This document shows positions 1-12,017 of a stretch of DNA of 12,017 bases, in pieces. Each line of letters begins with the position of its first letter. The first letter of the stretch is position 1. The translations under genes were made by a program, and so were the position numbers. The notes below the pieces were generated by a model that was not told the DNA's origin, ran no database searches, and saw only the letters and a program-made list of their open reading frames with translations. The DNA comes from Candidatus Poribacteria bacterium (lineage in GTDB: Bacteria; Poribacteria; DTPJ01; WJIO01): positions 1 through 12,017 of the forward strand of contig WJIO01000424.1 of assembly GCA_014730235.1 (NCBI GenBank), written 5' to 3'.

Positions 1-983
1 AGACAGGATATGGAAGAGTAATTTACCTGGCTTTTGACTACATGGAACCATCACTTCTTCAATGGAAGGGAAATAATAAGTTATGGAAAAACCTTATTAA
101 ACCTTCAGTATTACAAAGATCTGATATAAGTAGAACAGTAAAAAATCTTCTTATATCTATTAGTTCCACAGACCTGCCCTCCCTTAATTCTGTTATAATA
201 TTTCTGTCATTTTACATAATTTTTTTGACTTTTGTTTCGTATATAATCTACAAAAAAGTTAAAAGGAATGGATGGATTTTTCTTTTTATACCATTTATTA
301 TCATATTTTTTTCTTTCGGTTCCCTGGGCTTTGTTTATCTGAACAGCAATTCGGCCTTAACAGTAGGTGAACTTTCAGTGGTGGATGTATTTCAGGATAT
401 AGATAGGGCCAGAGTATACAGCTATTTCAGCCTTTTTTCTCCTTCTGGTAATAGTTACAAAGTTAGTTTTAATAAGCCCAAAACTGTATTTTTAGATTAT
501 ATATCAGTATCAGACAGCAGGAAATATGTATACGGAGATATGAGCTTAATACAAAAAAATGGGTTAATTCTAGAAATATCTAACCCAGATATAGCAAATC
601 CACAGTTGCTTTGTAGTGAATTATATGTTAAGCTGGAAGGGAATATTGAGATTAATAGCAATAGTGAATTAATAAGCCATTTTCCCTTTGATCTCGATGA
701 ATGTTATTATTTTTCTGATGGTCAATACTTTTTTCTGGGGGATATTAAACAAGGTAAATCGCTGAGATGGGATAATCAGGGAAATATTCCCGGCATATCA
801 TCAATCAAAGATGAAGGAAAGCAAATATTTATTAACTCTATGCGGCGAAACCTTTCTCAGCGAATATCAGGCAGGGGAATTATAGGATGGATGAAGGATT
901 CCGCTCTTAGATCGCTGGCAGGGATAAATCCAGGTCAAACCTACAGAAAGACGGGTAGTTCTCTCGTCATTATTCATCTGTAG
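1..983 (+). CDS. C-terminal part of an uncharacterised two-helix membrane protein (5' end outside window)
   Basis: The frame is open from base 3, upstream of the first in-frame ATG at 42, so this is the 3' part of a longer gene and not a gene starting at 42. The first visible residues (GRVIYLAFDYMEP, then a Trp) resemble the end of the glutamine-amidotransferase-like or vWA-linked domain found in large membrane proteins of several anaerobes; that is recall of a family pattern, not a search. Counting from the ATG at 42, two hydrophobic helices lie at about residues 48-70 and 77-100, joined by a short basic loop (KKVKRNG). About 210 polar residues follow and are probably extracytoplasmic. No catalytic motif is visible. 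The gene ends 32 bp before the radical-SAM activase, so co-transcription is possible, but a functional link is not evident. Function unknown. Confidence 0.75.
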   Translation, partial: TGYGRVIYLAFDYMEPSLLQWKGNNKLWKNLIKPSVLQRSDISRTVKNLLISISSTDLPSLNSVIIFLSFYIIFLTFVSYIIYKKVKRNGWIFLFIPFIIIFFSFGSLGFVYLNSNSALTVGELSVVDVFQDIDRARVYSYFSLFSPSGNSYKVSFNKPKTVFLDYISVSDSRKYVYGDMSLIQKNGLILEISNPDIANPQLLCSELYVKLEGNIEINSNSELISHFPFDLDECYYFSDGQYFFLGDIKQGKSLRWDNQGNIPGISSIKDEGKQIFINSMRRNLSQRISGRGIIGWMKDSALRSLAGINPGQTYRKTGSSLVIIHL

Positions 984-1015
984 ATTCTGAAATTATGCCA
1001 ATGTGAGGTTATTAG

Positions 1016-1933
1016 ATGAGTGAATTAACAGGCACGATATTTGATATTAAAAGGTTCGCTGTACATGATGGTCCGGGTATAAGGACAACAGTGTTTTTCA
1101 AGGGATGCCCATTGCGCTGTCTTTGGTGTCATAACCCGGAATCTATGAAAATCCAAAAGCAGATAGTCTTTTTTGAAAATAAATGTATAGGTTGTGGCGA
1201 ATGCTTTAAACGCTGTCCAAGCGGAGCTTTAGAAGCAACTCCAGAGGGACGTGTATATTACCGGGCAAAATGCAAACTGTGTGGAACATGTGTGGAATAC
1301 TGTTACGCAGAAGCTACGGTTATGGAAGGTAAAACCGTAACAGTTCAGGAAGTAATTGACGAAGTAAAAAAAGATATGCCATTTTATGAAAATTCAGGCG
1401 GCGGTGTAACCCTTTCAGGAGGTGAGCCAACCTTCCAGCCGGATTTTTGTCTTGCTGTGTTAAAAGCTTCCAAAGAAGAAGGTATGCACACAACTTTGGA
1501 TACATCGGGCTGTGTAAAATGGGATACCCTGGAAAAAATACTGGAATACGTTGACCTTGTTCTTTATGATATGAAACATATGAATCCCGATAAGCACAAA
1601 GAATTTACAGGAGTACCCAACGAACTTATACTATCAAACCTGAAAAAAATGGATCAACTGAGTATACCCATAGAAATTAGAATGCCCACAATTCCGGAGT
1701 TAAATGATTCCCAGGAAAATCTACAGGCTTTAGCTGAATTTTTGTCAGAACTTAAAAATGTTAAACGTATTAAGCTTTTGCCGTATCATAGATTGGGTGA
1801 AGGTAAATACGAACGCCTGGATATGGACTACAGATTAAAAGATCTGCAGCCGCCCTCAAAGGAACGAATGAAAGAAATTACCGATTTTATGCGGGATAGA
1901 ATCTCTGAGCGTATTGAAGTTATTTCTGGGTAG
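1016..1933 (+). CDS. Glycyl-radical enzyme activating protein (PflA-like radical SAM)
   Basis: This 305-residue cytoplasmic enzyme uses S-adenosylmethionine and a 4Fe-4S cluster to place the glycyl radical on a partner enzyme such as a pyruvate formate-lyase-type lyase or a dehydratase. The radical-SAM cysteines are at 31, 35 and 38 (CPLRCLWC, a C-x3-C-x2-C motif), and the SAM-contacting GGE is at 135-137 (LSGGEP). An inserted ferredoxin-like domain carries two further 4Fe-4S sets, at Cys57/60/63/67 and Cys86/89/92/96. This insert is typical of activases for enzymes other than classical PFL (the PflA of E. coli lacks it). The N-terminal VHDGPGIRTTVFFKGCP segment is diagnostic of the family. 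ATG 1016 has a GAGG sequence 7 nt upstream. No glycyl-radical enzyme gene is present in the window, so its substrate cannot be named; the usual partner may lie elsewhere. Confidence 0.93.
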   Translation: MSELTGTIFDIKRFAVHDGPGIRTTVFFKGCPLRCLWCHNPESMKIQKQIVFFENKCIGCGECFKRCPSGALEATPEGRVYYRAKCKLCGTCVEYCYAEATVMEGKTVTVQEVIDEVKKDMPFYENSGGGVTLSGGEPTFQPDFCLAVLKASKEEGMHTTLDTSGCVKWDTLEKILEYVDLVLYDMKHMNPDKHKEFTGVPNELILSNLKKMDQLSIPIEIRMPTIPELNDSQENLQALAEFLSELKNVKRIKLLPYHRLGEGKYERLDMDYRLKDLQPPSKERMKEITDFMRDRISERIEVISG

Positions 1934-1973
1934 GCTTTCTGACGCTTTAATAATTGCAATTGGTAATAAAATT

Positions 1974-2045
1974 GGACCTTCCGGGTTTAGCATGGTAATA
2001 ATTTGGAAATTTTCTTAGCTTTACCACACTGAACCCGGAAGAGCC
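1974..2045. mobile_element. MITE copy A, 72 bp, minimal inverted-repeat element
   Basis: The left end (GGACCTTCCGGGTTTAGCAT) and the right end read on the opposite strand (GGCTCTTCCGGGTTCAGTGT) match at 20 of 25 positions over their outer 25 bases. Only about 22 bp lie between the arms, so this copy is essentially two terminal repeats back to back. The inner right arm (TTTTCTTA-CTTTACCACACTG) is nearly identical to copy B at 5602-5622, which ties the copies into one family. The flanking octamers (ATAAAATT and AAAAATTT) agree at 6 of 8 positions, which means little in AT-rich DNA. No ORF lies inside. It sits just upstream of a remnant reading frame and of the UvrC-like gene. Confidence 0.8.
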
Positions 2046-2051
2046 AAAAAT

Positions 2052-2150
2052 TTTATTAAATCTGTTAAACAAATATATGGAGATAAGCTGAGTATGGGTT
2101 ACCAGGAAGCACCAAAACAGGAATTACTTTTTGATATTGATAAATTATAA
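2052..2150 (+). pseudogene. Possible 3' remnant of a lost gene, or an 18-codon leader ORF
   Basis: A frame directly after MITE copy A encodes about 32 residues ending at TAA 2148-2150. It includes YGDKLSMGYQEAP and ends QELLFDIDKL. Its composition looks like a real protein tail and not like spacer DNA. The only in-frame ATG is at 2094; it has GGAG 11 nt upstream and would give an 18-residue peptide. The order of a short helix, then YG, then a small residue and Gly recalls the C-terminal tail of Y-family DNA polymerases. That is a weak resemblance, offered only because the next gene is a DNA-repair homologue. The alternatives are a leader peptide or chance. The frame is closed upstream by TAG at 2016-2018, inside the MITE. 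Confidence 0.3.
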
Positions 2151-2167
2151 ATTTAAACATTATTCTC

Positions 2168-3265
2168 ATGCTTACCAAAGAATTAGTAAAGCCATTACCA
2201 GACAAACCCGGTGTATATTTCTTCAGGAGCAGGACATCCGAAATCCTTTATATTGGCAAGGCAAAGTCTTTGAAGAAACGGGTCAGATCATATACTTATC
2301 CGTCATATCGCCATTCAAAAAGAACCCGACGTTTAGTAAGACGTGTTAAACAGGTAGATTATACTGTTTGTGGTTCAGAACTGGAAGCCCTGCTTTTGGA
2401 ATCAAGGCTTATTAAAGAACACCTGCCTGAATATAACGTTGCTCAAAAGCGCCTCAGAAATTTCCCTTTTGTAAAAATAACAATGCAGGATGATTTTCCC
2501 AAGATACTTGTATCATGGGAGATCGAATCCGATGGAGCCAAGTATCTGGGGCCCTTTTCACATATGTCCGCAGCACAGGAAACTGTTGATCTTATCATCA
2601 ACTACTTTCCTGTGCGTAAATGCGATGATGAAGTCTTTAGAAGGACGAAACGTCCCTGCCTGGAGTATCACCTTAACAACTGTACCGGGCCTTGCTGTGG
2701 GAAAATTAGCAGGGAAAAATATCGCAATATAATTGGCTCAATTTTAAGGCTTCTTGGTGGTCAGAAATATACTCTTATAAGGGATATGGAAAAAGATATG
2801 AGAGAAGCGGCAGAGGAGTTGAAATTTGAAAAGGCGGCAAGATTAAGAGATCATATAGATGGTCTTCGGAAAGAAATCATAAGGAGAAAATTCAGGGTGA
2901 ATTCGGTGGATAACAATAATCTTATAGCCATTTATCCAGCTATAGAGATTAATTCTGCTGAACTATTTTTCATAAGAAAAGGTGCTTTGGTAGAGCAGAA
3001 AACCGTTTGTGCCGAAAATCAAACGGAAGAAAGACTTTATGGTGAACTTGCCGGGTATATTAAACAAATATTCTTTAATGGAAATAATCCCGATAAAAAA
3101 CAGATGACAAAACTGGAAGTAGACGCCATGAATATAATATCCCGGTGGCTTTATCGTCATCGGAATGATCAATCTCTGGTTCATATAAAAAGAAAGCGAA
3201 ATAAAACTGAAACTATAAATTCAGCGGCTAAAAATGTAATAAATATTATCCGTTCTTTATCATAA
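2168..3265 (+). CDS. Short UvrC-like GIY-YIG endonuclease with Fe-S cysteines and UVR domain, lacking the RNase H half
   Basis: This 365-residue cytoplasmic protein is homologous to the N-terminal half of excinuclease subunit UvrC, which makes the 3' incision in nucleotide excision repair. The GIY-YIG nuclease domain covers about residues 10-95: GVY at 15-17, YIG at 28-30, Arg38/Arg40 following, and Glu78 in LLLESRLIK as the likely metal ligand. Cys152, 164, 172 and 176 keep the 12-8-4 spacing of the UvrC iron-sulfur ligands (RPCLEYHL, CTGPC). A UVR (UvrB-interacting) helical pair lies at about 204-238. The protein then follows the UvrC middle region and stops before the RNase H-like 5'-nuclease and helix-hairpin-helix domains (full UvrC is about 600 residues). 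Cho is similarly short but normally lacks UVR. ATG 2168 fits the family start but has no clear Shine-Dalgarno sequence. The stop is 8 bp from the converging gene. Confidence 0.88.
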   Translation: MLTKELVKPLPDKPGVYFFRSRTSEILYIGKAKSLKKRVRSYTYPSYRHSKRTRRLVRRVKQVDYTVCGSELEALLLESRLIKEHLPEYNVAQKRLRNFPFVKITMQDDFPKILVSWEIESDGAKYLGPFSHMSAAQETVDLIINYFPVRKCDDEVFRRTKRPCLEYHLNNCTGPCCGKISREKYRNIIGSILRLLGGQKYTLIRDMEKDMREAAEELKFEKAARLRDHIDGLRKEIIRRKFRVNSVDNNNLIAIYPAIEINSAELFFIRKGALVEQKTVCAENQTEERLYGELAGYIKQIFFNGNNPDKKQMTKLEVDAMNIISRWLYRHRNDQSLVHIKRKRNKTETINSAAKNVINIIRSLS

Positions 3266-3273
3266 TCATAATT

Positions 3274-5418
3274 TTAAAAAGGCTTCCATTTTAGCAGGTA
3301 TGAAAGCTTTATAAAAATAATCCGCTCGCTTTCTTTTACGTCTTTTTCTTTTTCATCCGTATATACAAAATATAGATTACTTTCGGGTCGAAATTCCCAG
3401 CCAAACAGACCAAAGATATAACGACCTGCATCCCGGGACATTTCAAAAGTGGTCCTTACAAACATTTTATGGGAGAACTGATAGCTGGTTGTAAGTCTTC
3501 GATTCAGCATCAGGGGTTCACCCTCTTTATCCAGTCGTTCCAGATCGAACTCGATCCTAAGCTTTTGAGTTGGTATTATTCTTATTTCCGGAGCAATGAA
3601 AAACATATCCCTGTCGTCCTGTTTTCCAAAGGATACTCTATTCATTATTGTTGCCCATTTAGGAGGAAACCATCCGGTAAAGAAGAATACAGTTTTATCA
3701 GTGTAAAATTTATCTTCATTGTCCGGATCAACATGATAATACCACTGGGGTTCTACCGAAGCGTAAAAATCCAGAAACCGTGCCCCTAATTCTAAAACAG
3801 CACGTTCGTTAGTGGTTACACTTTTATGATTTTCCAGCTTTTCACCGCCAAACCATGTTCTTATAGACTTAAGAACATCGGAGTTACGGTCATACTCATA
3901 GCCCATTCCCCCCCTGAAACCTCTGCGGTCAATACGCGGTACAAACCCTGTTTCAGCTTCAAAATCCGGGCCCACATCAACATAGCTTAGATCATAATGT
4001 CCTGACGGTACACTGCCTTTGAGTTCCAGAATAAAAGCATTGTCGTCTAAATCATGGGACCAGCTATTGGCATATTGACCCATCAGCCTTGTATCTTTTG
4101 GCAAAGATAAATTAAAATCTACTGATCCAATTCGGTTATAATCATTAGCTTTTTGCTTATTTACGCCTAGAATCCCTATACTTGAATTCCTGCCTACATC
4201 CCTTTGTCCACGAAAAACCAGATATTTATTATCCGTTTCGTCCTCTGTTTCCTCTTCCGGTTCCTCTTCATCATCAGATTCAACTGTATCATCAGCCTTA
4301 CATCCTAGCAGGGCCATATTATAACTGCCCAATTTACCGACGGCCTTGGCCCCATACATCAGGTCTTTTATTCCCACCCTTCGGGTATAAAAAAGCTCAA
4401 TAGGGGATTGAAAAAGCTCCATACCCTCCTGGAAAAACGGTCTTTTTTCAGGGAAACGCCTCTCCACATCATCCAGATTGATCCGGGCGGGGTCGGCTTC
4501 TACCTGTGCAAAATCGGGATTAAAGGTAAAATCTGCTGTTATGGTTGTGGATGGATACCTTAGATCTATACCTGCGTCAGGCTCTATATCCCTTTCGGGG
4601 GAAAGCTGGGGTTTGATTGTGCCATAGGGTTTAAATTCCAGGGCGCGCCTTGTGGAGAATTCTTCAGGAGTAAGACCTACAATTACACCAAATTTTGAGA
4701 CGGCAAGTTCTTCTTCGCCTACATCTGCCCATGTGTCCTCTTCTTCTAGTTCCTCGTTTCCTCGCCAGAAATTTATACCCCATGTTCCATCTCCCTTTTT
4801 ATCGAAACGAAGCTCAGAAAAGGGTATAGCTAACTCAGCCGTCCAGCCTTTATCATCCCTGGATGCCCCAGCATCCCAGGCGCAGTCCCAGGCCCGGGAT
4901 CTGTCGCCGAATGGACCGCCGCTTCGCATGCTTCCCTCGTTGGCAATGCGCCTATCAGCCTGAGTTCCCAGACAATTAACGGAAAAGGCATAACAGTTAC
5001 GCCGGTCATGGTATGTGTCCAGAAAAACCTCCACAAAATCGTCCTGGAAAAAGCGACCATCCCTTTTCATTTCCATTCCAATAACCTTATCAGGATTTTT
5101 TTTATGACACTCAAAACCTATATATATTTTTTCAGTATCAAACAGGACATAAACCATTGTAGGATCACCAGGCTTTCCCCCCTTAACCGGTTCGTATTGC
5201 AGAAAATCGGAAACAGGCTGGGCTTTTTTCCAGGCTTCATCGTCCAGTTTACCGTCTATATCCGGAGCTTCTTCAGAACTTATTTTAATAGCTTTTATTA
5301 TTTTGGGATTTTCTTCTTTTTGGTCATCGTCATCATCATAGGATGTAACCGGGAAAGAAAAAACAAAAACAGCAATAAAACACACAAATGCTAAAATAAT
5401 ATTTTCGCAATTTTTCAT
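3274..5418 (-). CDS. Secreted CBM9-like / DUF5916 outer-membrane beta-barrel protein
   Basis: The 714-residue product has an N-terminal signal peptide (hydrophobic core about residues 7-24, then a run of five Asp). A CBM9-like carbohydrate-binding fold follows at about 45-250 (IDGKLDDEAW, then VYVLFDTEKIYIGF, FQDDFVEVFLD, GWTAELAIPFSELRF). The DUF5916 signature follows at about 299-340 (NPDFAQVEADP, then FPEKRPFFQEG), and the rest is strand-rich up to a C-terminal Phe. This is the architecture of envelope proteins of diderm bacteria thought to sit in the outer membrane; their biochemical role is not settled. A very acidic stretch at about 386-397 probably forms a surface loop. The start is ATG 5418, not GTG 5439, because AGGAGG lies 7 nt before that ATG and overlaps the longer version. 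It has its own promoter (5466-5494) and converges with the UvrC-like gene. Confidence 0.88.
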   Translation of the reverse strand: MKNCENIILAFVCFIAVFVFSFPVTSYDDDDDQKEENPKIIKAIKISSEEAPDIDGKLDDEAWKKAQPVSDFLQYEPVKGGKPGDPTMVYVLFDTEKIYIGFECHKKNPDKVIGMEMKRDGRFFQDDFVEVFLDTYHDRRNCYAFSVNCLGTQADRRIANEGSMRSGGPFGDRSRAWDCAWDAGASRDDKGWTAELAIPFSELRFDKKGDGTWGINFWRGNEELEEEDTWADVGEEELAVSKFGVIVGLTPEEFSTRRALEFKPYGTIKPQLSPERDIEPDAGIDLRYPSTTITADFTFNPDFAQVEADPARINLDDVERRFPEKRPFFQEGMELFQSPIELFYTRRVGIKDLMYGAKAVGKLGSYNMALLGCKADDTVESDDEEEPEEETEDETDNKYLVFRGQRDVGRNSSIGILGVNKQKANDYNRIGSVDFNLSLPKDTRLMGQYANSWSHDLDDNAFILELKGSVPSGHYDLSYVDVGPDFEAETGFVPRIDRRGFRGGMGYEYDRNSDVLKSIRTWFGGEKLENHKSVTTNERAVLELGARFLDFYASVEPQWYYHVDPDNEDKFYTDKTVFFFTGWFPPKWATIMNRVSFGKQDDRDMFFIAPEIRIIPTQKLRIEFDLERLDKEGEPLMLNRRLTTSYQFSHKMFVRTTFEMSRDAGRYIFGLFGWEFRPESNLYFVYTDEKEKDVKESERIIFIKLSYLLKWKPF

Positions 5419-5425
5419 GTATTTT

Positions 5426-5431
5426 CCTCCT
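5426..5431 (-). promoter_or_regulatory. Shine-Dalgarno that fixes the DUF5916 start
   Basis: AGGAGG read on the - strand lies 7 nt before ATG 5418. An upstream in-frame GTG at 5439 would put this motif inside the coding region and has no comparable site of its own, so the shorter product is preferred. Confidence 0.8.
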
Positions 5432-5465
5432 GGTTTCACTTTTATAGAGCTTTAAAAACAGAAGT

Positions 5466-5494
5466 ATTATAACACGACGATTATTCTGTGTCTA
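5466..5494 (-). promoter_or_regulatory. Sigma-70 promoter of the DUF5916 gene
   Basis: On the - strand, TAGACA (5494-5489) and TATAAT (5471-5466) are separated by 17 bp, and TGT directly before the -10 box gives an extended -10. Five of six -35 bases and all six -10 bases match consensus. Transcription would start near 5459, leaving a leader of about 40 nt. The inner boundary of MITE copy B is 23 bp upstream of the -35 box, so the promoter itself lies outside the element. Confidence 0.7.
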
Positions 5495-5509
5495 TAAAAA
5501 ATCCTTTTT

Positions 5510-5517
5510 TATCTTAT
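5510..5517. repeat. Left target-site duplication of MITE copy B
   Basis: TATCTTAT is identical to 5638-5645 on the other side of the element. The right copy contains the stop codon of the lipoprotein gene (TTA at 5642-5644, TAA on the - strand). Confidence 0.88.
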
Positions 5518-5637
5518 GGTTCTTCCGGGTTAAGTGTGGTTATAATTGAAAATTCCCTCAGCTTGTCATTCCTGCTTTCGCAGGAATGACAGCGTAAAGA
5601 ATTTTCTTATCTTTACCACACTGAACCTGGAAGAGCC
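5518..5637. mobile_element. MITE copy B, 120 bp, with perfect 8-bp target duplication
   Basis: The left end GGTTCTTCCGGGTTAAGTGT and the right end on the opposite strand, GGCTCTTCCAGGTTCAGTGT, form arms whose similarity extends about 40 bp inwards (to GAAAATTC on both sides). The octamer TATCTTAT occurs immediately outside both ends (5510-5517 and 5638-5645), a perfect target-site duplication and direct evidence that this unit transposed. Terminal GG, the GG-TCTTC start and an 8-bp duplication are features of ISL3-family elements; that assignment is inference. The centre is filled by a 12-bp-stem palindrome (5564-5591). There is no coding capacity. It lies between the lipoprotein gene stop and the DUF5916 promoter. 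Confidence 0.9.
5564..5591. repeat. Perfect 12-bp-stem palindrome nested inside MITE copy B
   Basis: TGTCATTCCTGC pairs with GCAGGAATGACA across a 4-nt loop: TTTC on the + strand, and GAAA, a GNRA tetraloop, on the - strand. The sequence closely resembles the palindromic intergenic repeat of the GTCATTCC-type common in many bacterial genomes, so it may be a second repeat that entered the MITE. It has no T-tract on either strand and so is not a standard terminator. Confidence 0.8.
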
Positions 5638-5645
5638 TATCTTAT
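5638..5645. repeat. Right target-site duplication of MITE copy B
   Basis: TATCTTAT duplicates 5510-5517. On the - strand the insertion point lies 4 nt after the lipoprotein gene stop codon, so the reading frame was left whole. Confidence 0.88.
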
Positions 5646-6586
5646 TTCAGATAGTATGATTTGAGGGTTGCCTCTGTGTGTATGTTTTCGCCGCCTACAT
5701 TTTCCTCCTGGGTAAATTTTACTATGCCTACATTTGGTGCGAGCCAGTGGTAGGTTATTATGCGATCAATTTCGTTGCCCAGGAGTTCCCACGTGAAGTC
5801 CTCTTTTATTTTGAATACATGCTCAAAACTTCCGGCTTCGACAGTTAAATCCTCTTCGGATATGACTTCATAAGTGGCTCTACCGTTGCCGATGAAAAAG
5901 CCTTCCGGAAGTTTTACATTAAACTCGACTTCCCATGTTTCACCGGGGATGAGGGGTAATTTATAGAGGGGTAGTTCTGGAGAGAAGATTATAGTATCGC
6001 CGCCGGCGTTGGAGCCTCCCATAGCGTATTGGTATACCACATCTGAATCAATATTAATGTAGGTGAAGTTTGCCGCATCCGGCAGGTCTGATGATGTTGT
6101 TTGTTTTACATAGGCTGTGGTATCCGATTCCAATCCCTGTATCTCAATAGTGTCAATAATCTCAAAATTAATGGTATTGCCGTCGCTGTCCTCAAAAGTC
6201 CAGCTATAGCCGACTTCCAAGGGGTAATAATCGCCGGGGCGGGGTATCCACACCCACAGTATAATGCTTTGTGATACACTGTCGTTACCGTCGCTGACTG
6301 TTACCGTTATTTCGTATCTACCCTCTTCCTGGGGAGGTGACCAGCTTACGGTTTTGCTGCTGCCGTTAATATTTCCAGCGGCGGCAGTCCATATATATGT
6401 TAATGGATCTTCGTCTACATCTCCGGCTTCGACTGTAAGCGTCGCTGTTTGATCCGGGGCCACTATCTCTGGTTCGGCTATAAGGCTGAATATTATGGGA
6501 GGATCTGATTCATCTTCACCGCATCCGGGGATTAGAGCAAGGATGGTCAGGGAAAAAATGGTGATAAGAATGTAAATATTTTTCAT
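5642..6586 (-). CDS. PKD/Ig-like domain lipoprotein of unknown function
   Basis: The 314-residue product begins with a lipoprotein signal peptide: Lys3, a hydrophobic core at 4-19, and the lipobox LIPGC with Cys22 as the acylated residue. The mature protein is therefore expected to be membrane-anchored. Residues of about 33-112 form an Ig-like fold of the PKD/cadherin type (DQTATLTVEAGDVDEDPLTY, then GRYEITVTVSDG). From about 115 onwards comes a second domain (YYPLEVGYSWTF, later ETWEVEF and EAGSFEHVFKIKE), a pattern common in uncharacterised secreted proteins of diderm bacteria. No enzyme motif is visible. ATG 6586 has a weak AAGGGA about 9 nt upstream. The stop codon lies within the target duplication of MITE copy B. 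It is on the same strand as the DUF5916 gene 223 bp downstream, but that gene has its own promoter, so an operon is not required. Confidence 0.82.
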   Translation of the reverse strand: MKNIYILITIFSLTILALIPGCGEDESDPPIIFSLIAEPEIVAPDQTATLTVEAGDVDEDPLTYIWTAAAGNINGSSKTVSWSPPQEEGRYEITVTVSDGNDSVSQSIILWVWIPRPGDYYPLEVGYSWTFEDSDGNTINFEIIDTIEIQGLESDTTAYVKQTTSSDLPDAANFTYINIDSDVVYQYAMGGSNAGGDTIIFSPELPLYKLPLIPGETWEVEFNVKLPEGFFIGNGRATYEVISEEDLTVEAGSFEHVFKIKEDFTWELLGNEIDRIITYHWLAPNVGIVKFTQEENVGGENIHTEATLKSYYLK

Positions 6587-6605
6587 TATGGTAATCCCTT
6601 ATAAG

Positions 6606-6611
6606 ATAATA
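6606..6611 (-). promoter_or_regulatory. Possible extended -10 element for the lipoprotein gene
   Basis: On the - strand TATTAT (6611-6606) is preceded by TGC, giving TGCTATTAT. There is no good -35 box 17 bp upstream (the sequence there is TCAAAT, within the CGGAT repeat region). The leader would be only about 15 nt long. This is a weak call. Confidence 0.3.
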
Positions 6612-6616
6612 GCACA

Positions 6617-6649
6617 CGGATGATACGGATTTGACGGATTGTCGCGGAT
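6617..6649. repeat. Four phased CGGAT repeats upstream of the lipoprotein gene
   Basis: CGGAT occurs at 6617, 6626, 6635 and 6645, spaced 9, 9 and 10 bp. An ATCAGCG stretch follows about 30 bp further out, at 6682-6688. The pattern recalls dispersed intergenic repeats built of ATCCG units seen in various genomes. Because it lies just upstream of the lipoprotein start it could also be a multi-site operator. Which of the two it is cannot be told from one copy. Confidence 0.5.
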
Positions 6650-6747
6650 ATTTATGTAAACCATATAATAGAATACGAAAATCAGCGAAAAAGGATTACC
6701 CGACCCTTAATATTTAGTGATCAAACCATTTATCAGTAAAAAATTAT

Positions 6748-6854
6748 GACTTTTCAGGATTAAGTCTGGAAAATCAAAACGGGAGGGCTAAACCCTCCCG
6801 AAAGTAAGTTAAAACTTAAATAATTTTTATTTTCACACTGAACCCGGAAGAACC
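6748..6854. mobile_element. MITE copy C, 107 bp, degenerate left arm
   Basis: The right end read inwards on the - strand is GGTTCTTCCGGGTTCAGTGT, an almost exact match to the other copies. The left end (GACTTTTCAGGATTAAGTCT) has decayed but aligns at 12 of 16 positions over the TTCCGGGTTCAGTGTG core. The flanking octamers (AAAATTAT, CAATTAAT) agree at 5 of 8, so any target duplication has eroded and this copy is probably older than B. Its centre carries a perfect 8-bp hairpin (6780-6800) that looks like a terminator, plus a smaller palindrome TAAGTT-AA-AACTTA at 6805-6818. Confidence 0.75.
6770..6800 (-). terminator. Rho-independent terminator candidate after the pseudopilin gene
   Basis: On the - strand, CGGGAGGG pairs perfectly with CCCTCCCG across a 5-nt loop (TTTAG) and is followed by TTTTGATTTT. 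It lies 94 bp after the stop of the pseudopilin gene and is the first strong hairpin the transcript meets. It is embedded in the middle of MITE copy C, so the transposon copy appears to supply the 3' end of this transcription unit. On the + strand there is no T-tract, so termination should be one-way. Confidence 0.6.
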
Positions 6855-6894
6855 CAATTAATTAGCTTTGGGATATTTAAATCAGAACCTTAAT

Positions 6895-7344
6895 CTAGTT
6901 TTCCTCAGTCCAGTTGACTATATCTTCGTTATTGCCATTTCCTCCGGATATACCGTCTTTACCATAGGAAAGTAGGTCGTAATCATATCTATTAACTCTA
7001 CCGGGGTATATGTAAACATAATTTCTTTCCCATGGGTCTTTGAGTATGGGCTTATCCAGATAAGGTCCCTGCCAGTTGTTGGGTATAGGGGGAATAATTG
7101 GTTTTTCCCAGAGGGCTTTCAAGCCCTGTTCTGTGCTGGGATAAGCTCCGTTATGATTGGCGTAAATATCCAGAGCAAGACCCAATTCGTCAATATCGTT
7201 ATTGGCCTGTGTACGCCGGGCCTTTTCCTGTTGACGTAAAAGCCTGGGAGCGGCAACTCCGGCAAGAATTACAATCACAACTATAATAATCAAAAGATGC
7301 ACCAGAGAAAAACCTGATACACCTTTGCGAAATTTTTTCAGCAT
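6895..7344 (-). CDS. gspG: GspG-type major pseudopilin with His in place of Glu5
   Basis: The 149-residue precursor is a type II secretion or type IV-pilus-like pseudopilin that would be cleaved by prepilin peptidase and assembled at the inner membrane. It has an 11-residue basic leader ending in Gly11, cleavage before Phe12, and a hydrophobic helix at about 12-35. The GspG core follows: LGLALDIYANHNGAYP, TEQGLKALWEKP, NWQGPYL, KDPWERNYVYIYPG and the calcium-loop region (SYGKDG, then EDIVNW). The mature N-terminus reads FSLVH, so the nearly invariant Glu at +5 is His. The start is ATG 7344, because AAGGAG lies 8 nt upstream; a start at 7374 would add ten hydrophilic residues and overlap the upstream gene. 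Only 2 bp separate it from the phosphomannomutase stop, indicating translational coupling. No other secretion gene is present in the window. Confidence 0.88.
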   Translation of the reverse strand: MLKKFRKGVSGFSLVHLLIIIVVIVILAGVAAPRLLRQQEKARRTQANNDIDELGLALDIYANHNGAYPSTEQGLKALWEKPIIPPIPNNWQGPYLDKPILKDPWERNYVYIYPGRVNRYDYDLLSYGKDGISGGNGNNEDIVNWTEEN

Positions 7345-7346
7345 AC

Positions 7347-8990
7347 CTAATTCTCCTTTTTTATCTCTTCCCAAAAACTTTCAATGGCTTTTTCCAAAGG
7401 TTCTGGTTCAACTGTGGAATATTCCTTAAATATATTATTTACTTCCTGCATCCTCTGGTAAAGTAGCTCATAACTTGGGGCTTCAAACTTAAGTGTAAGC
7501 TTAGGAACTGTATTACTGGCTCTAATCAGAAACCAGCTATGGTCTTTGAATTGAGCGCGAACACCGTCCACCTCAATAAGACCACAATCGGGTTTCTGTA
7601 TTTTTATTTTACTTTTGCCATCACCGACTTCCAGAGGATCGCACAAAGCTTTTAAATCATCTTTATAATCTTTAGATATTTGGGCTTTAATTTTATCCAC
7701 TATCTGGAATTTTTCTTTATCATCGCATGAAACCCTTATTTCCGGTCCTGTTGGATTAGAAGGGATAGTATCCATTAGTTCCTGCAAGGTTACACCTGCA
7801 CATGAATCATCGGTTTTAAATTCGTCCAGTATGTATATAAATTTCAGGGCGGAATACAGGCCATCGTCTATTAGTATATCCGCAGCATGGGGAACGAAGT
7901 TACTGTTTTCACCCATAGAAGCTGTAGGATAAAAGAAGTGCCCGGAAGCCTCCGCTGTTGTGTGAGTTGGTTTTGTCTTACCAATTTCCGGTATTATTAA
8001 CCGGGCAAAAAGACGATGGCTGGGATAACCAGCAGGAATAAAGAAGCCGCGCCCTCCGTTTTCGGATACAATTTTCATGGCGGCGTTGGATGCCCTTACA
8101 TCCAGGGCCATGACCTCTTCATCATTTTTGCTGTTTAACAGATATTCTTTGTAGAATATGGCAGCCATTTTTTCGGGCCAGACAACCTCTGCATTTTCGG
8201 CCACAAATCCGCTTCTGTCAGCATCACCATCAGTTAAAAGCCCGTACCATTTATCTTCCGGGCTATTTATACCCCTGTTTGTGGCTTCCAAAGCTTCTGA
8301 TACAAGCTCAGCGGCTTCTTTATCCGAGGGATCAGCATCATGGTAAGGGAAACTGCCGTCGGGTTTTGTAAGTAAAGCTATTACATCCGCGCCTCTTTCC
8401 TGAAGCAGGGGAACAAGCAAACCGCCCAAACCATTACCGGCGTCAAATATTATCCGGTGTTTACACTTAAACGGCTCAGGAAAAGCTTTATTGAGCATCT
8501 GTATATATGAATCAACAATATTTATTTTTTCTATATTACCTTTTTTCTTTGACAGTCTATATTTACCCTCTTCGATTTTCGGTATGAGTTCTTTTAATTG
8601 TTCGCCATAAAGGGCTTCCATACCCTCGCTGATTTTCATCCCGTCAAAATACCAGGGATTATGGCTCCCTGTTACCTGAACTGCGCCGTCCAGACCATGT
8701 CGTATAAGGTACCAGTTATTGGCACCGCTAGGTACTTGACCCTCATCAACCTTTACGTTTATACCCACTGCCGTATAACCATCAACAAGAGCCTGTCGCA
8801 GTTTGGTCGTCATTATTCTATGATCGCCGGATATGACTACTGTTGAACCTTCTTCTAAACGACTTCCCAAAGCCATACCGATGTTTAGAGCTACATCTTC
8901 GGTTAGGTTCTTTTTAATGTCCTTCTCCGGCACATCATGGGTATAGCCTCGTATATCATATCCTCTGAATATAGTAGCATCTATCTTCAT
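7347..8990 (-). CDS. Phosphomannomutase/phosphoglucomutase (alpha-D-phosphohexomutase family)
   Basis: This 547-residue cytoplasmic enzyme interconverts hexose 6-phosphate and hexose 1-phosphate, feeding nucleotide-sugar synthesis for envelope glycans. The phosphoserine loop TGSHNP is at 107-112 (Ser109). The metal-binding DGDADR is at 254-259 (Asp254, 256, 258). The sugar-specificity loop AEASGH is at 346-351, and the C-terminal phosphate-binding RASNT is at 490-494, followed by KLTLKFEA. The AlgC-like RASNT loop suggests the dual mannose/glucose type. The length is about 90 residues above the usual 450-465, with the extra sequence spread over linkers and a C-terminal tail rather than a recognisable added domain. 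ATG 8990 has GGTGA about 9 nt upstream and a good promoter at 9058-9086. It overlaps functionally with the pseudopilin gene only by operon position; no direct link is known. Confidence 0.92.
   Translation of the reverse strand: MKIDATIFRGYDIRGYTHDVPEKDIKKNLTEDVALNIGMALGSRLEEGSTVVISGDHRIMTTKLRQALVDGYTAVGINVKVDEGQVPSGANNWYLIRHGLDGAVQVTGSHNPWYFDGMKISEGMEALYGEQLKELIPKIEEGKYRLSKKKGNIEKINIVDSYIQMLNKAFPEPFKCKHRIIFDAGNGLGGLLVPLLQERGADVIALLTKPDGSFPYHDADPSDKEAAELVSEALEATNRGINSPEDKWYGLLTDGDADRSGFVAENAEVVWPEKMAAIFYKEYLLNSKNDEEVMALDVRASNAAMKIVSENGGRGFFIPAGYPSHRLFARLIIPEIGKTKPTHTTAEASGHFFYPTASMGENSNFVPHAADILIDDGLYSALKFIYILDEFKTDDSCAGVTLQELMDTIPSNPTGPEIRVSCDDKEKFQIVDKIKAQISKDYKDDLKALCDPLEVGDGKSKIKIQKPDCGLIEVDGVRAQFKDHSWFLIRASNTVPKLTLKFEAPSYELLYQRMQEVNNIFKEYSTVEPEPLEKAIESFWEEIKKEN
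7353..7358 (-). promoter_or_regulatory. Shine-Dalgarno for the pseudopilin gene inside the upstream coding sequence
   Basis: AAGGAG on the - strand encodes a Lys-Glu pair at the very end of the phosphomannomutase gene and lies 8 nt before ATG 7344. This decides the pseudopilin start and implies coupled translation of the two genes. Confidence 0.75.
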
Positions 8991-9057
8991 CAGATAATTT
9001 CACCCCGATCATTTATGTTTAAATTTTTGATTATTATCAATATTAATAACTGGCAAG

Positions 9058-9086
9058 ATTCTACCTCATTTAATTGCTTATGTCAA
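9058..9086 (-). promoter_or_regulatory. Sigma-70 promoter of the phosphomannomutase-pseudopilin unit
   Basis: On the - strand a consensus TTGACA (9086-9081) is followed after exactly 17 bp by TAGAAT (9063-9058). Transcription would begin near 9050, giving a leader of about 60 nt. The leader contains an AT-rich imperfect palindrome around 9029-9048. Confidence 0.78.
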
Positions 9087-9165
9087 TACTGATCTGTTGA
9101 AATTCAGACATTAGTTGGGACAGAAATCCTGTGAAATTTTCTTAATAGTAATTGTTAAAAAATGA

Positions 9166-9282
9166 GGTTTTTCAGGGTTAGTTTGGTAACTGATATTTCT
9201 AAAATTAACTAAAACCAGATGTTGCAGTGCTTAAAGAGACACTAGCATTTTCAACTATAACCCCACTAAACCCAGAAGAACC
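9166..9282. mobile_element. MITE copy D, 117 bp, between two divergent promoters
   Basis: The left end GGTTTTTCAGGGTTAGTTTG and the right end on the - strand, GGTTCTTCTGGGTTTAGTGG, share the family termini with one gap and a few substitutions. The inner right arm (GGTTATAGTTGAAAATGC on the - strand) matches the left arm of copy B (GGTTATAATTGAAAATTC). The flanking octamers (AAAAATGA, AAACTTTA) agree at 5 of 8, so no convincing duplication remains. The centre holds an imperfect hairpin (TGCAGTG against CACTaGCA, 9223-9247). The element separates the phosphomannomutase promoter from the rpoD promoter. Confidence 0.75.
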
Positions 9283-9363
9283 AAACTTTATTTTTTATTC
9301 CGTTCTTCGCAATAACACAGGGATGTAAAATTTATGCTTGGTAAATATAAATACAAAAATTCT

Positions 9364-9392
9364 TTGACTTTAATGAACACATATGCTATAAT
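9364..9392 (+). promoter_or_regulatory. Sigma-70 promoter of rpoD
   Basis: TTGACT (9364-9369), a 17-bp spacer and a perfect TATAAT (9387-9392) with TGC immediately before the -10 box make this the strongest promoter in the window. The predicted start is near 9399, with a leader of about 73 nt to ATG 9472. Transcription of the housekeeping sigma gene from such a site implies autoregulation by its own holoenzyme. Confidence 0.85.
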
Positions 9393-9460
9393 AATTGCAT
9401 GGATTAACTGACAGTTTCTAGTGCTTAATTGCTCCAGGTGGTCTGAAATCAATAATAATC

Positions 9461-9465
9461 AGGGA
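9461..9465 (+). promoter_or_regulatory. Shine-Dalgarno that fixes the RpoD start
   Basis: AGGGA lies 6 nt before ATG 9472. The alternative GTG at 9421 has no such site and would begin only about 22 nt after the predicted transcription start, adding 17 residues ([17 protein letters not shown]) that do not look like sigma region 1.1. Confidence 0.65.
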
Positions 9466-9471
9466 TCTCTT

Positions 9472-11283
9472 ATGGGTAAACTCGAAGACCTCGTGAAATC
9501 CAAAATTGCTGAGGTTGCGAAAGAAAAGGGATACCTAACCTGCCGAGATATAAGTTCTGCGCTTGCCAATGAATATGGCCTTTCCAAAGGTTCCAGGAAT
9601 ATAGAACGTATATTCTCTATTCTTGACAAGTTAAACATCGAAATACGCCTTTCAGATCAGGATAAAATTCAACCCCCCAATTCTTCTAAATCCAGCAAAA
9701 AGTCAAATTCTAAAGATAAAGATCAGGATGATAATAAAGATTCTGAAGACGATTTAGATTATTCTTCAGATGATGACGAAGAATCTGAGGATGATTCTGA
9801 ATCTACTGATGATAATTTTTGTCAAAAAAGCAAGAATTCTGGAAAATCTTCGAATTCCGGTGGTGATGCCACAACCCTTTATCTTCGTGAAATGGGACGT
9901 TCATCCCTTTTGACAAAGGAAGAAGAGGTTTTGCTTTCTAAACGTATTGAAGACTGGCAAAAGGTTATACTTGAAGCATTGCTTGAGATACCTTTTGCTA
10001 TAAGAGAAATAAGAAAGATCGCCAATAAGACCTTCGACAAAACCCTGAAGCGAATATCTCGAAAAAGCGACACACCATCCGTTTCCATTCATAGCTCCAA
10101 ACGCCTTAAAAATCTTGAGAGTGTCATTAATTTTCTGGAGGAAACAGAAAAAGAGATGAGGAACTATCATAACCAATTGTGTAATGATAATTCGGAATCG
10201 CAAGTAGATGATATTCTCGAAAAGATTTCTTGCAGCAAACAGGAATCAATGGAGATTATATCTAAGGCACGCATTTCTGAAGATGATATCTGGAAAGTAG
10301 TAACAAATATCAAGAAAATGCTTGAGGAAGTATATGCTATCAGGAAAGAAAATGAAAATCAAACTGAGCATGAAATCCACGACGAAATGTCGGCGTTTTT
10401 AATAGATGGATATAATGAAATGGATATAGCATATGTGGATATGAAATTAAGCAGCAATTCACAAAAAATCCGTATGATCGAACAGACTGTCGGCATTCCT
10501 GTTGATAGACTTGAGAATATTGTTGATCTGATAAAAGGTGCAGAAGAACAAGTCCATAAGGCAAAAATGAAGATGGTCTCGGCAAATCTAAGGCTTGTGG
10601 TCAATATTGCCAAGAGATACGGTGGTCGGGGGTTATCATTCCTGGATCTGGTTCAGGAAGGTAATATAGGGCTTATGCGAGCCGTAGATAAATTCGACTA
10701 TCGCAAAGGTTATAAATTCAGTACTTATGCAACATGGTGGATTCGGCAGGCAGTTACAAGAGCCATAGCCGATCAGGGAAGAACTATACGCATACCGGTA
10801 CATATGATCGAAGCCATTAACAAAGTTACTGCTGCAACAAAAAAGTTAATACAACGAACAGGAAGAGAACCTACGTTTGAAGAAATCGCCCAGGATATGA
10901 ACCTGCCAGTAGAAAAAATACAGCATATTCTGGAAGTCGCTCAAAGCCCTGTTTCCCTCGAAACGCCTGTAGGCAGTGAAGAAGATAGTCTGCTCAGTGA
11001 TCTTATTGAAGATAAGGACATTGAAGGACCTGACATACAGACTATATCCAACGCCATAAGCGAACAGGTTAGAGCTGCACTGGAAGCCCTTTCCGAACGA
11101 GAAGCCGACATAATAAGACTGCGCTTTGGTATTGATAATAAAGAACCTCAAACCCTCGAAGAGGTCGGTAAAAAATTCGGGATAACCAGAGAACGAGTAA
11201 GACAAATCGAAGCCGCAGCCCTCAAAAAACTCGCCCACCCGGGTAGAAGCAAGGAACTTAAAGACTTGCTTGAGCTTAGCTAA
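9472..11283 (+). CDS. rpoD: RNA polymerase housekeeping sigma factor RpoD (sigma-70, group 1)
   Basis: The 603-residue protein directs RNA polymerase to -35/-10 promoters. Region 1.1 is at about 1-62. A low-complexity Ser/Asp/Glu/Lys linker covers 63-133 and contains an acidic run around 87-115. Region 1.2 is at 136-165 ([19 protein letters not shown]), followed by a helical non-conserved region of about 200 residues. Region 2 is at 370-445 ([57 protein letters not shown]). Region 3 is at about 446-530 (with [13 protein letters not shown]) and region 4 is at 535-603 ([32 protein letters not shown]). The size and the large insert match proteobacterial-type RpoD, not the compact Firmicute SigA. 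The gene stands alone with its own promoter; the frequent partner dnaG is not adjacent. No clear terminator hairpin is visible in the 92 bp after it. Confidence 0.96.
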
Positions 11284-11375
11284 CCTGATAAATCTATACA
11301 TTTATACCAAAAACCTTAATCCAAAAAACTATATTTTAAACTTTTCTGCAAAAACCGTTAAAGGAGTAATAATAT

Positions 11376-12017
11376 ATGACATCAAAAGAGCGTATGCTAA
11401 AAGCAATGCAAAATGGTAAACCCGACTGCGTTCCTGTCGCGCCGGACATGTCCAACATGATACCATGCAGGCTTACAGGCAAACCGTTCTGGGATATTTA
11501 TTTATATCAGGATCCTCCTCTATGGAAAGCTTATATCGGAGCCGCTAAACATTTTGGTATTGACGGCTGGTTAGCGGGTGTTCCACTACAATTTGATTAT
11601 GAAATAGAAGCTGCAAAAGATCGGCCTGGGCGGCAGGAAGCAATTATAAAACGCACCTCAGAACGCATTTATACCCGGTTTCATGCGGACATAAACGGCG
11701 AAAAACACTGGTCGAATTACTGCAATGTCTATTACATTGCTGATCCTCCCACGCGAGGACTTCCTCTGGCAAAAGCAGGATTGCCTGATAACGCACCCAC
11801 CGAATGGGAGGATGTTCATCGCCGAACCAATTATAAAGGCCTGAAGGCGTTCCACGAAGCCAATGAATATATGGGTGATGATGGTGTTGTAGGGGTCGCC
11901 ATCGGGATTCCGGGGCTTAATTTAAGGAACATGGATTCCATATACGAATACTACGATAACCGGGAAAAAGTAATCAAAAGATGCCAACAGTCAAAAGAGA
12001 ATCTTGTCCGCAGGTTG
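11376..12017 (+). CDS. Uroporphyrinogen decarboxylase (URO-D) family protein, N-terminal 214 residues
   Basis: A frame opening at ATG 11376, with AAGGAG 9 nt upstream, stays open to the last base of the window. The family is usually about 330-380 residues, so roughly 60 percent is visible. The N-terminus (SKERMLKAMQNGKPDCVPV) is the standard opening of URO-D superfamily proteins, and KHFGIDGW fits the first beta-alpha units of the barrel. Many such proteins in anaerobes are cobalamin-dependent methyltransferases of the MtaA/MtbA/CmuA kind and not haem enzymes; the deciding Zn-binding His-x-Cys motif would lie beyond the window. The immediate neighbour (rpoD) gives no clue to substrate. No strong promoter is visible in 11284-11375, so read-through from rpoD is possible. 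Confidence 0.82.
   Translation, partial: MTSKERMLKAMQNGKPDCVPVAPDMSNMIPCRLTGKPFWDIYLYQDPPLWKAYIGAAKHFGIDGWLAGVPLQFDYEIEAAKDRPGRQEAIIKRTSERIYTRFHADINGEKHWSNYCNVYYIADPPTRGLPLAKAGLPDNAPTEWEDVHRRTNYKGLKAFHEANEYMGDDGVVGVAIGIPGLNLRNMDSIYEYYDNREKVIKRCQQSKENLVRRL

Follow-up and report, generated by a model that had tools for sequence, protein, structure and literature searches.

Miniature inverted-repeat transposable elements (MITEs) of ISL3 type are already known as a kind. In Microcystis aeruginosa a 187-bp MITE with 8-nt duplications and a stem-loop has been attributed to ISL3, an ISL3 transposase being inferred in the passages that describe it (PMC11448079). We analysed a 12,017-nt stretch of a Candidatus Poribacteria bacterium genome, here called the window (GenBank assembly GCA_014730235.1, contig WJIO01000424.1, positions 1 to 12,017; contig 371 of a 5.53-Mb, 451-contig assembly). 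It contains four short intergenic repeats, copies 1 to 4, which are very probably members of a non-coding MITE family of several hundred copies, family A, mobilised in trans by an ISL3-family transposase and giving rise to mosaic elements through a shared core.

The ends of family A start with GG[CT]TCTTCC and those of the Microcystis MITE with GGCTCTTCG, and 8-nt duplications and a stem-loop are common to both. The Microcystis MITE differs in sequence and length, its host genome also contains ISL3 elements whose ends match it, and the passages devoted to it name no core common to other families (PMC11448079). The ISL3 insertion sequences (ISs) of Neochlamydia pS13 and Gloeothece Cy782202 resemble family A in end type and in their 8-bp AT-rich duplications, but encode a transposase. 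Copy number and the shared core are the unusual features of family A.

The window was searched with the 22-nt end GGNTCTTCCGGGTTNAGTGTGG and with a 19-nt form, allowing up to three mismatches. Six of the eight window ends matched the 19-nt form, and none was found in 200 dinucleotide shuffles. The end matches bear out the four elements and inverted ends of the original prediction at the coordinates it gave; copies 1 and 2 have two readily recognised ends, and copies 3 and 4 are degenerate, each with one good and one decayed end. Across the genome, the 22-nt end with up to two mismatches gave 734 matches and the reversed control none (19-nt end, up to three mismatches: 1044 versus 3). The 22-nt search gave no match in a genome of the same order and a maximum of 14 among 83 other genomes of the phylum. 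IMG/VR contigs yielded one exact and 12 looser end matches, all singletons without an ISL3 gene. The expansion of family A to several hundred copies is restricted to this lineage.

Pairs were studied in a 0.7-Mb sample of stretches, partly picked for matches and partly taken as about every eleventh contig. Inverted pairs under 200 bp, a check that the original prediction had proposed, were frequent: the sample held 68 inverted pairs of 40-250 bp with a modal length of 120 bp. A search for two exact ends 20-50 nt apart had no match, because the usual element is 120 bp long. The 281-kb part of the sample not picked for matches contained 23 pairs and 15 single ends, from which we estimate a genome total of about 450 paired elements, or up to about 750 including single ends and half-elements. 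The genome average is thus about one element per 7-12 kb. The suggestion of a very successful family, drawn from one copy per roughly 2 kb, was right as to abundance, but that density is not representative; the window, with four copies in 12 kb, is denser than the genome. Only three of the 68 pairs lay mostly within open reading frames of at least 100 codons, compared with 88% of random places; the other 65 lay outside. ERIC elements are likewise intergenic, about 127 bp long (PMC3049150) and present in hundreds of copies, 711 in Photorhabdus luminescens (PMC10969869). ISL3-type ends and 8-bp duplications belong to family A, the comparison with ERIC being one of descriptions, not sequences.

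Both flanks of the 68 pairs were compared at every length from 3 to 13 bp. There was a sole peak at 8 bp, where 81% of positions matched and 29 of the 68 pairs were perfect, against 0.5 perfect for shuffled partners; perfect matches at the neighbouring lengths numbered four at 7 bp and one at 9 bp. The duplicated 8-bp sequences are AT-rich. The 8-bp duplication originally proposed therefore holds for the family, although in the window it is perfect at copy 2 only. Filled and empty versions of the same site were also found. The element at L075:7231-7351 interrupts a repeat of a second MITE family, B, and has a copy of TCATTTTT on each side, whereas four intact B copies have a single TCATTTTT. 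L202:4881 is a similar filled-versus-empty site, and the element at L060:114 is located inside another A element. When the flanks of several A elements are joined, they match uninterrupted repeats at other places over the whole junction, which is direct evidence of insertion. The empty sites predicted earlier thus exist as paralogous sites within repeats, while the relatives lack the elements themselves; as the same-order genome has none, the comparison used paralogous sites. At the level of sequence, past mobility, the 8-bp duplication and an AT-rich intergenic location are evident. As expected of MITEs, the elements are shorter than 400 bp, lack coding capacity, have terminal inverted repeats, and occur as many dispersed copies with target duplications and evidence of past movement.

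The ISL3-family mobilisation that had been inferred from the window was supported by known elements. Annotated ISL3 elements on plasmids were retrieved with an ISL3 transposase fragment from the same phylum. The Neochlamydia element has the end GGCTCTTCGGAGGTTTACGTGGTA and its duplication, AAATATTT, is present twice; the Gloeothece element has the end GGTTCTTCAGATTTAAGTATGCTA, and the elements of Anabaena and Nostoc come with CTAATAAA and AAAAATTA. These ISL3 elements share the GG[CT]TCTTC start and a similar inner end with family A, agreeing with it at 18-19 of 24 positions by manual count. Perfect 8-bp duplications flank ISL3 elements of Anabaena, Nostoc, Neochlamydia and Oscillatoria. Within the phylum, the stop codon of an ISL3 gene in genome G071 lies about 20 bp before an end, GGTTCATCAGACTTAAGTGGGG, and other genomes contain elements of 270-570 bp with ends GG[CT]TCTTCAGAGTTAAGTGTGG and perfect 8-bp duplications (G029 L038, L039 and L041; G079 L035:1164-1481; few copies each). 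Family A thus has the GG[CT]TCTTC... ends (about 20-30 bp) and the 8-bp target duplication of ISL3-mobilised elements, and its assignment to ISL3 is well supported by ends and duplication together.

We infer an ISL3 transposase that works by cut-and-paste, on the basis of the end sequences, the length of the duplication and what is established about DDE transposases. This ISL3-family DDE transposase would act in trans, encoded by an element that the assembly lacks or does not resolve, and would recognise the 22-nt ends GG[C/T]TCTTCCGGGTTNAGTGTGG and excise the element. Insertion of the excised element into AT-rich intergenic DNA would produce the 8-bp duplication. Nested insertion, and presumably also recombination or deletion at common cores, has produced mosaic elements.

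Several observations weigh against this account. No complete ISL3 transposase was found in the genome's own assembly, including by a full-length protein search, and a search of the genome for the N-terminal zinc ribbon of ISL3 transposases was also negative. The expected ISL3 gene bounded by the same ends was not found in this assembly: there were only three ISL3 transposase fragments, all at contig edges, none was seen bounded by A ends, and the best judged of them has other ends. This fragment, L033, was at first favoured as the parent, with an A-like end about 290 bp downstream, and was dropped because in its relatives from named genomes (L087-L166, 95-98% identical) the element terminates in another repeat, of GGNTCATCCGG type, right at the stop codon of the transposase gene; an L033-type element is probably not the parent of family A. 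Present activity is questioned by the lack of near-identical copies in the sample. In 32 standard-length elements, median identity to the 120-bp consensus was 91% and nearest neighbours reached up to 95%; the typical copy differs from the consensus by about 9%, and family A probably did not expand very recently. Finally, the assembly consists of 451 contigs with about 5% contamination, and misassembly at short repeats could account for part of the chimeras. Short-read assemblies often lack multi-copy ISs, and identical young copies could have been lost in the same way. The L033:3-179 fragment itself is 95-98% identical in protein sequence to fragments from Desulfobacteraceae and Neomarinimicrobiota metagenome-assembled genomes of one sample series (Tobar; L087, L088), a likeness due either to recent transfer or to contamination common to them.

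Several IS families make 8-bp duplications, and no ISL3 transposase bearing family A ends was detected in the genome, so that mobilisation by another DDE family, with the ISL3-like ends a product of convergence, has to be considered. Known ISL3 elements nevertheless match family A in the GG[CT]TCTTC start, in the inner end sequence and in having AT-rich duplications, and the ISL3 gene end in G071 is of the same type, which makes such convergence very improbable. Least credible of all, and refuted as the main account by the exact 8-bp target duplications, is the proposal that the elements are repeated RNA or regulatory hairpins (terminators or REP-like extragenic palindromes) spread by gene conversion rather than transposition: the hairpins are strong (z -13.5), almost all intergenic, and more conserved in the central palindrome (0.92-0.96) than in the arms (0.86-0.88), but copies have inserted into other repeats with empty counterparts, and there is no Rfam match. 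A role of the hairpin in transcripts is possible.

The standard family A element is a near-perfect hairpin centred on a 26-nt palindrome, GTCATTCCTGC-N4-GCAGGAATGAC. This core has 338 copies in the genome; 96 relatives contain none, and a search of IMG/VR contigs for it was also negative. Most family A copies contain it, and the same core is central in two further MITE families with unrelated ends; the arms beside it fall into the groups A, B and C/D. Family B has the ends GTAATCGTTAAAAAATG, a length of about 124 bp and 5-6-bp duplications, with 235 ends genome-wide at up to one mismatch (for example L185:808-931 and L216:11784-11907). Family C/D has the ends ACTGA[GT]A[AT]TTCTAAAA and a length of 160-215 bp (for example L202:3781-3995 and L030:1312-1481), and has the core in common with A. 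Conservation is 0.92-0.96 in the core arms, 0.93 in the outer ends and lower, 0.86-0.88, in the sequence between them. Among 98 sampled cores, 57 had A arms on both sides, seven had B arms on both sides, about a dozen were of mixed family and one was without a known arm.

Mosaics arise in part by nested insertion, as shown by six cases in which an A element entered a B end at GTTAAAAAATGA|GG or one or two bases away. The element at L207:4205-4326 has B ends enclosing half of an A element, the core and half of a B element. A nested A element from which the DNA between two cores was afterwards deleted would have this layout; recombination or deletion at common cores would accordingly be a second source of mosaics. 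We tentatively suggest that the core acts as an exchange point, recombination at which swaps whole end-modules between unrelated MITE families and so changes the mobilising transposase; chimeras would then mark past chromosome rearrangements.

A related question, compatible with ISL3 mobilisation, is whether the core is itself a mobile repeat of dRS3 or REP type that inserted separately into three MITE families. Its location in three families with unrelated ends would fit, as would its layout, ATTCCT-N8-AGGAAT (20 bp), one base per arm away from the neisserial dRS3 ATTCCC-N8-GGGAAT (PMC9778887). We consider this doubtful: only one of the 98 cores lacks a MITE arm on either side, so the core hardly spreads alone here, and no duplication was noticed around the core inside A or B elements. 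It is improbable, too, that the chimeras were created by short-read assembly at a 26-bp repeat. The number of contigs and the shortness and 338 copies of the core speak for artefacts, but several mosaics are explained by insertion at the defined B-end site in the six cases above, and assemblers normally use k-mers above 26.

For MITEs with a shared core, the literature provided parallels only in BOX, the neisserial intergenic mosaic elements (NIME) and TIME. BOX elements of Streptococcus suis and S. pneumoniae are also modular, and in S. suis the end modules vary around the same inner boxB; they differ in having tandem inner modules, where there is one palindrome here, and families A and B have separate duplications of 8 bp and 5-6 bp (PMC3049150). 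NIME, like the present elements, form mosaics and occur in hundreds of copies, but dRS3 forms outer inverted repeats flanking their repeats, whereas the palindrome here is central (PMC9778887).

With several hundred copies in 5.5 Mb, family A comes close to the highest MITE numbers reported for bacteria, in a sparsely sampled lineage. Three MITE families with differing ends and duplication lengths and one core provide a natural test of end acquisition by non-autonomous elements, and of the extent to which palindromic cores promote rearrangement. Repeats of this kind are probably also the cause of some contig breaks in this assembly.

Within the window, copy 2 (5518-5637, 120 bp) is the full-length standard form, of modal family length. 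Its ends lie at 5518-5539 (+, no mismatch to the 22-nt end) and 5616-5637 (-, one mismatch), its hairpin fold has a z of -13.5, and the core, GTCATTCCTGCTTTCGCAGGAATGAC, occupies 5565-5590. The target duplication TATCTTAT, one of the 29 perfect ones, lies on the + strand at 5510-5517 on the left and 5638-5645 on the right, the latter overlapping the stop codon of the gene at 5642-6586 (-). Copy 1 (1974-2045, 72 bp) is internally deleted and without the core palindrome; its ends are at 1974-1995 (+, three mismatches) and 2024-2045 (-, none), and it folds as a single long hairpin (z -7.6). Copy 3 (6748-6854, 107 bp) has a decayed left end at 6748-6769 (+, five mismatches), a good right end at 6833-6854 (-, one mismatch) and, by sequence and fold, an alternative internal hairpin, CGGGAGGGCTAAACCCTCCCG, at 6780-6800 that replaces the usual core.

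Copy 4 (9166-9282, 117 bp) is a mosaic without core. Its A-type ends are at 9165/9166-9187 (+, six mismatches ungapped, improved by a 1-nt gap) and 9261-9282 (-, two mismatches), and its interior at 9189-9219 is a family C motif identical at 31 of 31 nt. A family B end, GTAATTGTTAAAAAATG, with one mismatch adjoins it on the left (9148-9164, +), the type of site where A elements repeatedly enter B ends. The likeness originally seen among the four copies thus holds for their ends and not for their interiors: given the deviating interiors of copies 3 and 4, the ends alone unite them. The flanks of copies 1, 3 and 4 agree at 6, 5 and 5 of 8 positions, no better than chance in AT-rich DNA.

All four copies are intergenic and none contains a gene, as predicted, apart from the overlap of the right duplication of copy 2. 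Copy 2 lies between a DUF5916 gene and a PKD-domain lipoprotein-like gene, directly past the stop codon of the latter, and copy 3 between the same lipoprotein-like gene and a type II secretion G-like gene. Copy 4 is flanked by a phosphomannomutase-like gene and a sigma-70 gene. A scan of the window for Rfam families and tRNA found neither. The neighbours of copy 1 are genes for a radical-SAM activating enzyme and for a UvrC-like protein (2168-3265); the latter protein is short, with 365 aa comprising GIY-YIG, UVR and RNase H-like parts.

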